From positions 1 through 52,930 of the forward strand of contig JAEUMK010000013.1 in assembly GCA_016792565.1 (NCBI GenBank): 52,930 nucleotides of DNA. The letters are read 5' to 3'. Under the pieces are notes generated by a model that saw only the letters and a list, made by a program, of their open reading frames with translations, was not told the DNA's origin and searched no databases. The position numbers and the translations under genes are program-made. The first letter of the stretch is position 1. Each line of letters starts with the position of its first letter. The stretch comes from Alphaproteobacteria bacterium. GTDB lineage: Bacteria > Pseudomonadota > Alphaproteobacteria > Micropepsales > Micropepsaceae. This document shows, piece by piece, positions 36,657 through 42,397 of this stretch.

Positions 36657-37940
36657 TCAGCCGCCGGTCGCCTCGATCACGTCTTCCAGCGTACGCAGCC
36701 CGGTGCGGGGGGCGTTCACCAGCACGGCCATGTTGCCGGGCAGGTGCTCGTTCTTCCACATCTTGGTGTGCGCCTTGGGGATGTCGGCCCAGGAGAAGAC
36801 TTCCGACATGCAGGGATCGATGCGGCGCTCGACCACCAGGCGGTTGGCCTGGCTCGCCTGGAGGTAGTTGGCGAAGTGCGAGCCCTGCACGCGCTTCTGG
36901 CGCATCCAGACATAGCGGGCATCGAAGGTGAGGTTGTAGCCGGTGGTGCCGGCGCAGAAGACGACCATCCCGCCGCGCTTCACGACCAGGCAGGAGACCG
37001 GGAAGGTCGATTCGCCGGGGTGCTCGAACACCATGTCGACGTCGTTGCCCTTGCCGGTGATGTCCCAGATCGCCTTGCCGAACTTGCGCGCTTCCTTGGT
37101 CCAGGCGTCGTATTCGGGGGTGCCGACCTGGGGCATCTGGCCCCAGCAGTTGAAGTCCTTGCGGTTGATGACACCCTTGGCGCCGAGGCTCAGCACGAAG
37201 TCGCGCTTGGATTCGTCCGAGATGACGCCGATCGCGTTGGCGCCCGAGACGGCGCAGAGCTGGATGGCGAACGAGCCGAGGCCGCCCGAGGCGCCCCAGA
37301 TCAGCACGTTGTGGCCGGGGCGCAGGATGTGCGGCCGGTGGCCGAAGAACATGCGGTAGGTGGTGGCGAGGGTGAGCGTGTAGCAGGCCGACTCTTCCCA
37401 CGTCAGGTGGCGCGGCCGCTCCATGAGCTGGCGGTCCTGGACGCGGGCGAACTGGGCGAAGGCGCCGTCCGGCGTCTCGTAGCCCCAGATGCGCTGGCTG
37501 GGCGAGAACATCGGGTCGCCGCCGTTGCACTCCTCGTCGTCGCCGTCGTCCTGGTTGCAGTGCACGACGACCTCGTCGCCGACCTTCCAGCGCTTCACCT
37601 TGGAGCCGACCGCCCAGACGATGCCGGCCGCGTCCGATCCGGCGATGTGATAGGGCAGCTTGTGGCCGTCGATGGGCGAGATGGGGGTGCCGAGACCGGC
37701 CCAGACGCCGTTGTAGTTGACGCCCGCCGCCATCACGAGGACGAGCACGTCGTGGCTGTCGAGTTCCCAGGTGGGCACGACCTCGACCTGGAAGGACTTT
37801 TCCGGCTCGCCGTGGCGGTCCTTGCGGATGGCCCAGGCGTACATGTTCTTCGGGACATGGCCGAGCGGCGGAATCTCGCCGATCTCGTAGAGATCCTTAG
37901 GCCCGTTCGCAGCCATCGCCGCCTCGGCAGTCGTCGCCAT
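36657..37940 (-). CDS. ccr: Crotonyl-CoA carboxylase/reductase
   Basis: The key CO2-fixing enzyme of the ethylmalonyl-CoA pathway: it reductively carboxylates crotonyl-CoA to (2S)-ethylmalonyl-CoA with NADPH. The 427-residue MDR-family protein has the Ccr N-terminus (DLYEIGEIPPLGHVPKNMYA), YHIAGSDAAGIVWAVG, the CNQDDGDDEECNGGDPMFS insertion typical of Ccr, the NADPH motif IWGASGGLGSFA and the FEHPGESTFP segment. I start at the ATG 37940, which follows a strong GGAGGGG site by 8 nt and gives the family length. An alternative upstream start would add 51 residues not seen in the family. Confidence 0.97.
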   Translation of the reverse strand: MATTAEAAMAANGPKDLYEIGEIPPLGHVPKNMYAWAIRKDRHGEPEKSFQVEVVPTWELDSHDVLVLVMAAGVNYNGVWAGLGTPISPIDGHKLPYHIAGSDAAGIVWAVGSKVKRWKVGDEVVVHCNQDDGDDEECNGGDPMFSPSQRIWGYETPDGAFAQFARVQDRQLMERPRHLTWEESACYTLTLATTYRMFFGHRPHILRPGHNVLIWGASGGLGSFAIQLCAVSGANAIGVISDESKRDFVLSLGAKGVINRKDFNCWGQMPQVGTPEYDAWTKEARKFGKAIWDITGKGNDVDMVFEHPGESTFPVSCLVVKRGGMVVFCAGTTGYNLTFDARYVWMRQKRVQGSHFANYLQASQANRLVVERRIDPCMSEVFSWADIPKAHTKMWKNEHLPGNMAVLVNAPRTGLRTLEDVIEATGG

Positions 37941-38163
37941 CGTCGAAACCCCTCCAATGAAGCGCCGCGCGGCTCTCATGGCCTTTGCGCAAACGGCAGA
38001 CTGAGGATTCGTCAGTTTTGCGTCGGCTGCAACCCAATTTTTGCACCGCACAAGGGGATTGGGACACGATTCGCCGAATAATGTCGCCGACAAGACACAA
38101 AATTACGTTCCGGCAAGCCAAGGCGACGCGTCAGATCGTTTCCCTGACGCGCCGCACCATGTG
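37941..38163 (-). promoter_or_regulatory. ccr upstream region
   Basis: This gap in front of ccr holds no gene. It includes the palindrome TTTGCGCAAA (37984-37993), 44 bp before the ATG, and a longer dyad CCCAAT-N19-ATTGGG (38033-38063) whose interior reads TTTTTGCA...CACAAG. The stretch 38064-38110 is relatively AT-rich, with TTATTC and TTGTGT elements that may hold the promoter. ScfR/RamB-type regulators of acyl-CoA metabolism use TTTGC-containing sites, so these are candidate operators. Confidence 0.5.
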
Positions 38164-38191
38164 CGCAATCAGCGCCCGGCGTGACGGGCGA
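38164..38191. repeat. 28-bp direct repeat, left copy
   Basis: A 28-bp stretch from CGCAATCAGC to GTGACGGGCGA is repeated without mismatch and in the same orientation at 39564-39591. On the minus strand it encodes the last residues and stop of an acyl-CoA dehydrogenase C-terminus (ARHAGR-stop). The two copies bracket the MarR-methyltransferase pair. Confidence 0.9.
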
Positions 38192-38430
38192 AAGCCCGGT
38201 CAGACGCGTGCGACGGCCGTCGAGCAGGCTGAAGCCGCTCCCCCGCCCGGGTCTCCTCGGGCATGGGGCTGCGCCTGCTCGATACGCCGATCCGGGTCAG
38301 AGGCGTCTGGGACCGCATCACGCCCTCGTCGTGCCGCCAGCGCCAGGGCGTGTCGCGCGGCGGCGGCGCGAGCTGGGAGGAGAACTGGTTCATGGACTGG
38401 ACCCGCGCGCAGGGGCGAGCGGCGGCGGAA
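38192..38430. other. Gene-free stretch upstream of MarR operator
   Basis: About 240 bp with open frames on both strands but no gene I can support. A plus-strand frame from 38263 yields a plausible-looking WEENWFMDWTRAQ segment and could be a fragment of a lost gene; a minus-strand frame ends in the acyl-CoA dehydrogenase remnant. Neither has a convincing start or homology. Confidence 0.4.
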
Positions 38431-38475
38431 ATGACACCTTGGTTGACAATCCTGAATTGTCACCTAAGGTGTCAT
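38431..38475. promoter_or_regulatory. MarR-type operator overlapping promoter
   Basis: A 45-bp dyad: arms ATGACACCTT and AAGGTGTCAT are perfect and the inner TGACAAT/ATTGTCA also pair (18 of 20 positions per arm). Each arm is itself a near-palindrome of type TGWCACCT-T-AGGTGWCA, so two operator copies face each other. The arm includes TTGACA (38443-38448) and, 16 nt on, TAAGGT (38465-38470), a good promoter. Expected transcription start coincides with the ATG at 38477. Strong candidate for autorepression. Confidence 0.8.
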
Positions 38476-38476
38476 C

Positions 38477-38974
38477 ATGGGAACGGACGCCGCCGACATC
38501 GTGAACCTTCTCCCGCTTGCGGTGCTGCGGCTCACCGCGGCCGGGGACGCGCTGCACGCATCGCGCGGCCTCAACTCGGCGCTCCGGTCCATCCTGGTCA
38601 CGGCCGCCGCGCAGACGCCGCGGACGGTCTCGCAGATGGCGAGAGAGAGGCGGGTCTCGCGGCAGTATCTGCAACGCGCGGTGGACGATCTGATCGCCAT
38701 GGGGCTTCTGGCCGCCCTGCCGAACCCTGGGCACCGACGGGCGCCGCTCATTGCGCTCACCCGGCGCGGCGCCGCCATGACCGCGGCGATCCGCAATGCC
38801 GAGGCGCCGCTGGTCGCCGGCCTCTTCGCGGGGATCGATGGCTCGGCGCTCGCATCGACGGCGGCCGTGCTGCGCCTCGTGTGCGAGCGGCTGTCCGCCG
38901 GCGCGCAAGGCAGGGCGCAACCGCGCGCGCCGGCGCGGACCGGCGGGCGAAAGAAGAATGGCCCTCCGCCATGA
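38477..38974 (+). CDS. MarR family transcriptional regulator
   Basis: A 165-residue winged-helix regulator. The HTH and wing read TVSQMARERRVSRQYLQRAV, then LIAMGLLAALPNPGHRRAPLIALTRRG, typical of MarR proteins, with flanking dimerisation helices and a basic C-terminal tail (TGGRKKNG). It probably binds the 45-bp dyad that covers its own promoter. The ATG at 38477 follows AAGGTG, which could act as a ribosome-binding site if transcription starts upstream; otherwise the mRNA is leaderless. Its stop overlaps the methyltransferase start. Confidence 0.9.
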   Translation: MGTDAADIVNLLPLAVLRLTAAGDALHASRGLNSALRSILVTAAAQTPRTVSQMARERRVSRQYLQRAVDDLIAMGLLAALPNPGHRRAPLIALTRRGAAMTAAIRNAEAPLVAGLFAGIDGSALASTAAVLRLVCERLSAGAQGRAQPRAPARTGGRKKNGPPP

Positions 38975-39549
38975 GCAAGCGCCACCTGGCGATGACGCCC
39001 ACAAAGCTGTTCGGCCGGCTCATGGAGGCGATGAACGCCGCCGCCTATCGCGAGGCGATACAGGGCCTGCCGGCGCGCGGCGCGGTGCTGGAGATTGGCT
39101 TCGGCACGGGCCGTTTCCTGGAAATGCTGGCGGCGAGCGGCTCCTACGCCCTCATCGCCGGAATCGATCCGACCCCGGCCATGGTCGCCATGGCGGGCGC
39201 CCGGCCGGCGCTGCGCCAGCCCGGTTCGCAGGCCGACATCCGTCTCGGGACCGCCGAGAGCCTGCCCTGGGGCGAGGCCACGTTCGACGCCGTGGTGGCG
39301 ATCCACTGCTTCCAGTTCTGGAGCGATCCGCATGCGGCGGTGCAGGAAGTCCGGCGGGTCCTCAAGCCGGGCGGCCTGCTGCGCCTGGTGCTGCGTGCCC
39401 ACGGCGCGCACCCGCCGGACTGGCTGCCGAATCCCATCAGCCGCGCGGGCGACGAAGACGCCGGCGCCAGCGCCTTGCTGTCGGCGGCGGCGTTCGAAGC
39501 GGTCCTTGCCGGACCGGGGCACCGCATCGACGCAAGAAAGCCGGCCTAG
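38971..39549 (+). CDS. Class I SAM-dependent methyltransferase
   Basis: A 192-residue UbiE/COQ5-like methyltransferase with motif I VLEIGFGTGRFLEML (about 35-49), acidic AGIDPTPAMV, and VLKPGGLLRLVLRA. The C-terminal part is short compared with full-size relatives. ATGA overlap with the MarR gene makes this a coupled regulator-enzyme pair, likely induced by the MarR ligand. It lies within the interval bounded by the 28-bp repeats. Substrate unknown. Confidence 0.88.
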   Translation: MSKRHLAMTPTKLFGRLMEAMNAAAYREAIQGLPARGAVLEIGFGTGRFLEMLAASGSYALIAGIDPTPAMVAMAGARPALRQPGSQADIRLGTAESLPWGEATFDAVVAIHCFQFWSDPHAAVQEVRRVLKPGGLLRLVLRAHGAHPPDWLPNPISRAGDEDAGASALLSAAAFEAVLAGPGHRIDARKPA

Positions 39550-39563
39550 CGGCGCGTCGGGAA

Positions 39564-39591
39564 CGCAATCAGCGCCCGGCGTGACGGGCGA
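39564..39591. repeat. 28-bp direct repeat, right copy
   Basis: Identical to 38164-38191 over 28 bp. Here the sequence continues into a longer acyl-CoA dehydrogenase 3' remnant, so this copy looks like the donor. Confidence 0.9.
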
Positions 39592-39697
39592 CGATGGCGG
39601 CGGCGGCGAAGCCGCGGGGGACGTCTCCGAGACTGCGCCCGCCGCCGTCCGCAATGCGGGTGGCGATGAAGGCGTCCGCGATGTCCGATGGCGGGCC
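39569..39697 (-). pseudogene. 3' remnant of an AidB-like acyl-CoA dehydrogenase gene
   Basis: The minus strand encodes 42 residues plus stop (PSDIADAFIATRIADGGG... to IVARHAGR) that align with the C-terminus of the intact gene at 40742-42397 (PSAVADAFIATRIAGGGG... to IVARHAGH) at roughly three-quarters identity. Upstream the match stops and the frame runs into the protease gene. The divergence shows it is not a fresh duplication: it is either an old partial copy or the stump of a paralogue whose body was lost when the protease gene arrived. Confidence 0.8.
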
Positions 39698-40741: not shown

Positions 40742-42397
40742 TCAGTGCCCGGCGTGCCGCGCGACGATAGGAGCAGCGGCGAAGTCGCGGGGAACGGCGC
40801 CGTAGCTGCGTCCGCCGCCACCCGCGATGCGGGTGGCGATGAAGGCGTCGGCGACGGCGGACGGGGCGTGGCGGGCGAGCAGCGCGGCCTGAAGGGTCAG
40901 CGCCAGGCGCTCGGCGACGAAGCGCGCCTCGGCCTCGACCGGCCGCGCCGCCGCCAGGCCGTCCAGCACCTCGGCGATGGCGGCGTCCAGCCTTGCGTCG
41001 GCCCCGGCGGCGCGGCGCAGCTCGGCGGCGAAGGCGGCGAGCGCCTGCGGCTCGCGCGCGAAGGTGCGCAGGATGTCGAGCGCGATGACGTTGCCCGAAC
41101 CCTCCCAGATCGCGTTCAGCGGCGATTCGCGGAAGAGGCGCGGCAGCGGCGTCTCCTCGACATAACCGGCGCCCCCCAGGCACTCCATGCATTCGTAGAC
41201 GAAATTGGCGCAGCGTTTGGTCAGCCAGTACTTGGCGACCGCGACGGCGAGCCTTGCGAAGGCGCGCTCGCTCTCGTCCGCGCCGTCGAACGCCCGCGCC
41301 ACCCGCATGGTGAGCGCCACCGCCGCCTCGTACTCCAGCGCGAGGTCGGCGAGCACCGCCTCCATCAGAGGCTGGTCGATCAGCGTCTTCTGGAAGACCC
41401 GGCGATGACTGGCGTGGTGCAGCGCCTGGGCCAGCGCCATGCGCATGATCCCGAGCGTGCCCGCGATGGTGCCGAGCCGGGTGTGGTGCACCATGTCGAT
41501 GATGACGTTGACGCCGCGCCCTTCCTCACCCAGCAGTTCGGCATAGGCGCCGTGATACTCGATCTCGCTCGAGGCGTTCGACTTGTTGCCGAGCTTGTCC
41601 TTCAGCCGCATCACCTGGATGCGGTTGCGCTCGCCGTCCGGCGCGATGCGCGGCACGAGAAAGCAGGAGAGGCCGCCCGGCGCATAGGCGAGCGTCAGGA
41701 AGCCGTCCGACATCGGCGCCGAGCAGAACCATTTGTGGCCGGTCAGGCGATAGGCGCGCCCGCCCGCGCCTGGCATGCGCTCGGCCCGCGTCGCGTTGGC
41801 GCGCACGTCGCTGCCGCCCTGCTTCTCGGTCATCGCCATGCCGATCGTGACGCCGGCCTTCTCGCCGATGGGGCGCAGCGGCGCGTCGTAGCTTCCGCCG
41901 ACGAGCTTCGACAGCCAGGGCGCGGCGACCTCCGGGGTCGAACGCAGGGCCGGCACGGCGGCGTAGGTCATGGTCATCGGGCACATGGTCCCGGCTTCGG
42001 CCTGGGTGAAGAGGGCGAGCAGCACGGCATGGGCGACATGGCCGCCCGGACCTTCCGGCGTCCAGGCGATGTCGTGGATGCGATGCTCCATCGCGAGGCC
42101 CATCAGCTGGTGATAGGCGGGGTGGAAGCGGGCCTCGTCCAGGCGGCGGCCATAGCGGTCGAAGGCGATGAGTTCGGGCGGATGGCGGTTGGCGAGGTCG
42201 CCGGCCTCCAGCACCGCCTCGGAGCCCGCGAGCGCGCCCAGCGCAAGGGCGCGCGCATCGACCCAGGCCGCGCCCTCGCGCAGCACGCTCTCGCGCAGCG
42301 CCGGATCGCTCGCATAGAGATTGCGGCCCGCGAATTCGGGCGGCTGGTTCATCACCTCGTGGGTTGCGAGGCTGGTCGAGGGCGCGAAACGCGGCAT
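40742..42397 (-). CDS. AidB-like acyl-CoA dehydrogenase
   Basis: A 551-residue flavoprotein of the AidB group: N-terminal APSTSLATHEVMNQPPEF, FAD region MAMTEKQGGSDVRAN, CGGAGYVEE-type segment (LGGAGYVEETPLPRLFRESP) and IWEGSGNVIALDILR, followed by the extra C-terminal domain that gives AidB its DNA-binding surface. E. coli AidB protects DNA from alkylation and has weak isovaleryl-CoA dehydrogenase activity. Whether this copy acts in DNA protection or catabolism is open. Its last 43 codons are partly duplicated at 39569-39697. Confidence 0.92.
   Translation of the reverse strand: MPRFAPSTSLATHEVMNQPPEFAGRNLYASDPALRESVLREGAAWVDARALALGALAGSEAVLEAGDLANRHPPELIAFDRYGRRLDEARFHPAYHQLMGLAMEHRIHDIAWTPEGPGGHVAHAVLLALFTQAEAGTMCPMTMTYAAVPALRSTPEVAAPWLSKLVGGSYDAPLRPIGEKAGVTIGMAMTEKQGGSDVRANATRAERMPGAGGRAYRLTGHKWFCSAPMSDGFLTLAYAPGGLSCFLVPRIAPDGERNRIQVMRLKDKLGNKSNASSEIEYHGAYAELLGEEGRGVNVIIDMVHHTRLGTIAGTLGIMRMALAQALHHASHRRVFQKTLIDQPLMEAVLADLALEYEAAVALTMRVARAFDGADESERAFARLAVAVAKYWLTKRCANFVYECMECLGGAGYVEETPLPRLFRESPLNAIWEGSGNVIALDILRTFAREPQALAAFAAELRRAAGADARLDAAIAEVLDGLAAARPVEAEARFVAERLALTLQAALLARHAPSAVADAFIATRIAGGGGRSYGAVPRDFAAAPIVARHAGH

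Follow-up and report, generated by a model that had tools for sequence, protein, structure and literature searches.

Autoregulated operons headed by a MarR-family repressor are a textbook arrangement, and several described systems share individual traits with the locus analysed here. In Chromobacterium violaceum, the transcription start of ohrR overlaps the ATG and a leaderless mRNA has been proposed, with ohrR of X. campestris named as a similar case (PMC3469484). The OhrR site of C. violaceum overlaps its own promoter, as in the present locus; in contrast, OhrR is a peroxide sensor encoded beside ohrA, with an operator core of AATT-N-AATT or ATAGTGCACTAT, and the accessible portion of that paper mentions no methyltransferase partner (PMC3469484). 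CrtR of Corynebacterium glutamicum is also a negatively autoregulated MarR protein with a reported leaderless crtR, but it is divergent from a carotenoid operon, its promoter motifs are hard to find, and its binding motif is of the TTAA type (PMC5401885). The pairing with a SAM-dependent methyltransferase has a counterpart in mycobacteria, where the MarR protein Rv2887 controls the methyltransferase Rv0560c and control is relieved by a small ligand; however, the Rv2887 site contains CGATCG (PMC5526998) and, judging by the locus numbers, the two genes are far apart and in separate operons. Sinorhizobium meliloti OhrR, an alphaproteobacterial MarR protein, has two palindromic binding motifs before its own gene, but ohr and ohrR are divergent and the word leaderless is absent from the text in its accessible portion (PMC3107159). 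mRNAs that lack a leader are not uncommon among alphaproteobacteria, with a share of 7% in Methylorubrum (PMC9320726) and 119 of the 2,675 TSS-gene pairs recorded for Zymomonas (PMC7566282). Leaderless MarR mRNAs and MarR-controlled methyltransferases were already known separately, and the step taken here is therefore modest. Within the published texts covered, a scope outside which most of the subscription literature lies, the operator strings of the MarR family described below were not found, and a search for the combined features matched only a broad synthetic biology review.

The window, that is, the whole 52,930-base stretch of alphaproteobacterial DNA analysed, contains a MarR regulator gene overlapping a methyltransferase gene and preceded by a large inverted repeat. 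What was computed directly comprises the dyad and its single occurrence, the way in which operator pairing and spacing are conserved, the overlap between operators and promoter-like sequence, and the overlapping gene pair. The features of the locus are as follows:

38431 to 38475, no strand: 45-bp dyad housing both operators, found by inverted-repeat search and unique in the window
38432 to 38448, no strand: operator 1, TGACACCTTGGTTGACA, 5/8 pairs symmetric (weak palindrome), with paired TGACA-N7-TGTCA sites in relatives
38458 to 38474, no strand: operator 2, TGTCACCTAAGGTGTCA, 7/8 pairs symmetric (good palindrome), 26 bp from operator 1
38443 to 38448, plus strand: putative -35, TTGACA, making up the right-hand side of operator 1 and forming the best-scoring pair with the -10 at 38465
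38465 to 38470, plus strand: putative -10, TAAGGT, inside operator 2, 3/6 against TATAAT, spacer of 16 from TTGACA
38431 to 38436, plus strand: alternative -35, ATGACA, at the position used in most two-operator relatives
38453 to 38458, plus strand: alternative -10, TGAATT, score 5.51, with a start at about 38465 and a 12-nt leader
38467 to 38471, plus strand: AGGTG resembling a Shine-Dalgarno sequence, within operator 2 and 5 nt ahead of the ATG
38477 to 38974, plus strand: MarR-family regulator, 165 aa, ATG start, PF12802 MarR_2 at 35.2 bits (cut-off 27)
38971 to 39549, plus strand: class I SAM-dependent methyltransferase, 192 aa, PF08241 at 82.3 bits, its start overlapping the MarR stop (ATGA)

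The regulator also gave 18 bits with PF01047, under the cut-off of 24.6 for that model, and a profile built from 11 relatives matched solved MarR proteins (best E 3.1e-19). Neither the MarR nor the methyltransferase protein reached any listed NCBIfam cut-off, and the MarR match is at the level of the fold family, with no characterised regulator. Membership of the OhrR subfamily, judged by a conserved reactive N-terminal cysteine and an AATT-N-AATT operator, was not found, as the sole cysteine of the protein is residue 136 and the operator is of another type.

The arms of the dyad (38431-38450 and 38456-38475), each of 20 nt, are complementary at 18/20 positions (90%) across a 5-nt spacer, bearing out the 45-bp near-perfect dyad that an earlier note on this DNA had described. 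In the window this was the sole inverted repeat with 18 or more of 20 arm positions matched and a loop no longer than 20, compared with a mean of 0.05 and a maximum of 2 in 40 first-order Markov shuffles. The two near-palindromic 17-bp operators claimed in that note were both located, at the 26-bp distance given above, and the description fits operator 2, but operator 1 has only five symmetric pairs. Aligned with operator 2 in reverse complement, operator 1 agrees at 15/17 positions, and a search of the whole 3.07-Mb genome with TGWCACCTNAGGTGWCA, allowing up to 2 mismatches, matched only these two operators (reversed control, 0). The only perfect TGACA-N7-TGTCA site of the genome is at G000:C38:61212-61228.

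Relatives of the window MarR were only distant. Close relatives were not found by a single-protein scan of genome contigs, the genus gave no MarR match at E <= 1e-12 in its four other genomes, and matches, own genome included, were obtained in 11/61 near genomes (E <= 1e-10), 24/385 class genomes (1e-14), and 10/96 family genomes (1e-12). Based on these relatives, a paired-operator family was defined in this work as two TGACA-N7-TGTCA sites approximately 25-29 bp apart before a MarR operon. Of 37 distinct loci, 24 had at least one such site within 1100 bases upstream of the MarR gene and 18 had a pair there, compared with 1/37 in each case on the downstream side and averages of 0.63 and 0, respectively, after shuffling; these counts are partly circular, as the consensus was first spotted in some of those loci, and the set includes a locus reaching a contig end (L069) and near-copies (L039/L040/L042, L013/L049, L066/L069, and L047/L052). 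In the other 13/37 loci, several of which are members of an N6 branch, no upstream N7 site passed the threshold. As a check on the circularity, the 385 class genomes were scanned starting from the motif, taken as four TGWCA half-sites arranged in the same way. This yielded 15 places distributed over 14 genomes, whereas the reversed pattern was matched in 3 genomes; a MarR relative was present in the fetched stretch at six of the 15 places, window included, and at least four (G299, G361 twice, and G264) were simple tandem repeats.

The window operators agree with this family in their N7 and in their spacing, 26 bp being the commonest value among the relatives (9/18 pairs), and each carries 9/10 of the fixed letters. 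One half-site per operator, the inner one in each case, is reversed with respect to the family consensus (TGACA for TGTCA or the converse). This reversal has a parallel in the nearest relative, since the window MarR groups with L006 (93/71), whose operators are TGTCA-N7-TGACA with one letter off in each. In L045, a variant near the branch of the window, paired AGACAAT-type sites replace TGACA at approximately 1409-1450 of that locus. The claim that the regulator is an autorepressor with two 17-bp operators overlapping its promoter is supported by this conserved paired architecture, at the same spacing, in relatives. The 45-bp mirror-image block is very probably a paired switch bound by its own MarR repressor; predicted autorepression of the marR-methyltransferase operon is well supported, and its operation through the two operators is highly probable from the sequence.

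A second branch of MarR proteins has TGACA-N6-TGTCA operators. In a tree of 45 MarR proteins, which leaves out L040, L052, L093, L089, L094 and weak own-genome hits and in which three variant-operator rows were labelled by hand, all 14 N6 rows were located on one side of a 100/100 branch, separating the operator types. A methyltransferase-like ORF was found near 17 of the 23 N7 or variant MarR loci examined, on the same strand in 15; the closest methyltransferase (53.5% identical) accompanies the MarR relative of L045, where the two genes are divergent. Starting from the enzyme, 17 close methyltransferase homologues in other family genomes had a MarR gene nearby in one case only, and TGWCA-N6/7-TGWCA was absent from the fetched stretch in 16 of them, being inside the MarR gene in the 17th. 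The operators thus track the MarR gene instead of the enzyme, and the possibility of a methyltransferase-linked motif was rejected. Other neighbours also occur: in some relatives a sterol desaturase-like gene, named from reading translations, precedes MarR and the operators are located before it, and the neighbours of plasmid MarR genes differ; in Ruegeria, Rhizobium, and Methylocystis, for instance, MarR is divergent from antibiotic biosynthesis monooxygenase family proteins.

In the proposed mechanism, 38432-38474 would be the operator pair for the MarR protein encoded directly downstream. Two MarR dimers, bound at a distance of 26 bp from each other, would occlude the promoter and silence the marR-methyltransferase operon until a ligand, perhaps a small organic compound acted on by the methyltransferase, releases them. 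With the promoter inside the operators (-35 in operator 1 and -10 in operator 2), transcription would start at the ATG or no more than approximately 3 nt from it, giving a leaderless mRNA. We infer MarR binding, repression, ligand release and the start of transcription from the letters of the DNA, and the whole model, combining autorepression through the operator pair with a leaderless mRNA, is considered probable with modest confidence.

The pair TTGACA-N16-TAAGGT had the top matrix score of the plus strand in the window (8.94, with an E. coli sigma70 matrix and not an alphaproteobacterial one), predicting a start at 38477, the A of the ATG. A consensus promoter scan, which needs 4/6, accepted none at the dyad, because TAAGGT matches at 3/6 positions. 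Both promoter candidates, as predicted, overlap operators 1 and 2, so that the overlap proposed in the earlier note holds, with TTGACA in operator 1 and TAAGGT in operator 2, but with a poor -10. The TTGACA is 34 nt from the start codon, and the ATG is only 2 nt past operator 2, compared with 12-26 nt in two-operator N7 or variant relatives, for which starts were hand-chosen; the leader would consequently be very short under either promoter candidate.

Leader lengths were also predicted for the 37 loci, with the start codon of each chosen by hand. The top predicted leader was 0-3 nt in ten (the window, L014, L037, L043, L048, L050, L086, L087, L093, and L095), 20-28 nt in 19, mostly of the N7 operator type to which the window belongs, and of other lengths in eight; that of the closest relative, L006, was 22 nt. 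For most N7 relatives, the -35 coincides with the left half of operator 1 and the -10 comes immediately ahead of operator 2, beyond which a GGAG-like sequence is often found. Among the 18 N6-branch loci found with a plasmid-borne member, 10 place the operator TTGACA 35-38 nt ahead of the start codon. This set overlaps the 37 loci in nine (L014, L037, L038, L043, L047, L048, L050, L051, and L052), and in it L121, L124, L128, and L131 have several in-frame starts, the one at 35-38 nt being taken. Four of the nine new loci (L122, L126, L131, and L132) are within this range, as are five of the six plasmid loci with database-annotated starts (36, 37, 37, 37, and 35 nt), the sixth, L092, being at 59 nt. 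The exceptions are L129 (no site), L117 (43), L125 and L127 (50), and L118-L120 of one genus (56), and L130 counts only if TTGGCA is accepted (36). A leaderless promoter requires its -35 to be kept at such a distance from the start codon. At L126, L128, L131, and L132, the two operators reach or enter the ATG without a Shine-Dalgarno match of at least 4, which is the same layout as the earlier note proposed for the window. Together with L086, in which the second operator likewise touches or overlaps the ATG without such a match, these are candidate leaderless repressor mRNAs. By hand count, Shine-Dalgarno matches of at least 4 occurred in 7/15 short-distance and 6/7 long-distance loci of the N6 branch, a lower frequency at the short-distance loci that is suggestive only. 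The window, with 34 nt and N7 operators, and L087 would be cases separate from this branch.

For the window itself, the leaderless marR start claimed in the earlier note is considered slightly more likely than not: it has the best plus-strand promoter score and the distances of the N6 branch in its favour, and against it stand the poor -10 and the alternative of a leadered mRNA that would keep the same double operator and autorepression. In the latter, ATGACA (38431)-N16-TGAATT (38453) would set the start at about 38465, inside operator 2, giving a 12-nt leader in which AGGUG serves as the ribosome-binding site and operator 2 doubles as the ribosome site. Neither AGGTG nor this promoter figures in the earlier note. 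The alternative places the promoter as in most two-operator relatives, for example L016, L036, L046, L049, L066, L076, and L080, which have TTGACA-N16-TATATT or TATAAT directly before operator 2. If AGGTG is the ribosome site, the transcript must contain it, and at the right distance it would be superfluous in a leaderless mRNA; Shine-Dalgarno matches of at least 5 at usable spacing precede only 4% of all plus-strand ATG triplets in the window. GGTG recurs before the ATG in four loci of the N6 branch (L037, L050, L091, and L093), and TAAGG at 38465-38469 gives a match as long as that of AGGTG, nearer the ATG. However, the promoter of the leadered mRNA scores 5.51 against 8.94, its -10 TGAATT has no A at position 2, and AGGTG is perhaps present only because the operator half-site is AGGTGTCA. 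The 12-nt leader is regarded as possible but unlikely.

Two further explanations would remove the MarR operators altogether. The transcript could come from well upstream, the dyad then acting as an RNA hairpin that hides AGGUG by the start codon, with control at translation and no operator. The 38425-38485 segment does fold at -25.8 kcal/mol (z -4.98, with 0/200 shuffles as good), yet such folding is expected of any double operator from symmetry alone; moreover, no promoter-like site scoring above 1 starts in 38351-38430, and in most relatives the ribosome site is outside the dyad and the half-sites are nevertheless conserved; this explanation is considered very unlikely. The dyad could instead be bound by another regulator, or be a terminator or mobile repeat, with MarR controlling something else. 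The MarR match to the fold family only, with binding predicted from sequence, leaves room for this, but paired sites of the same layout are found before MarR relatives across the class, and the motif tracks MarR, given its distribution around the methyltransferase homologues described above; this explanation is considered very unlikely. As a terminator the dyad was rejected, with no terminator-like call at its position, and as a mobile or repeated element it was rejected because the operator motif has no second copy elsewhere in the genome. Control of the divergent ORF at 36657-38093 (minus strand), which has ADH domains in Pfam and whose translation reads as crotonyl-CoA reductase-like, was also set aside, since approximately 340 bp separate the dyad from the listed start of that ORF and the arrangement in relatives favours the marR side.

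The double operator bound by its own MarR remains the preferred reading, and it would place the MarR-methyltransferase pair in a family with a TGACA-N7-TGTCA or TGACA-N6-TGTCA operator code, often paired at fixed spacing. With the code defined, the regulon would become readable from sequence. The predicted leaders of 20-28 nt against 0-3 nt among relatives offer a natural series on the origin of leaderless repressor genes. A broader and tentative idea, considered improbable as it stands, is that a single lineage of alphaproteobacterial MarR genes may have seen the operator pair, promoter and start codon collapse into one block of 40-45 bp on several independent occasions (the window, L087, and the N6 branch), yielding leaderless repressor mRNAs from leadered relatives, and that in the window a read-through transcript would in addition fold into the -25.8 kcal/mol hairpin and hide AGGUG, so that only starts inside the operators would be translated.

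Some observations concern the surroundings of the gene pair. An open frame at 38263-38433 reads ...GASWEENWFMDWTRAQG..., with no stop before the dyad and no Pfam match; it resembles the end of a conserved gene and is possibly a gene remnant. The marR-methyltransferase cassette is flanked by a perfect 28-bp direct repeat (38164-38191 and 39564-39591), the right copy of which leads into 113 bp (39569-39681) sharing 83% identity with 40742-40854, where an ORF read as an acyl-CoA dehydrogenase has its 3' end. Next to this partial duplication, the cassette has the look of an insertion or rearrangement, and the absence of this MarR from the four other genomes of the genus is noted alongside.
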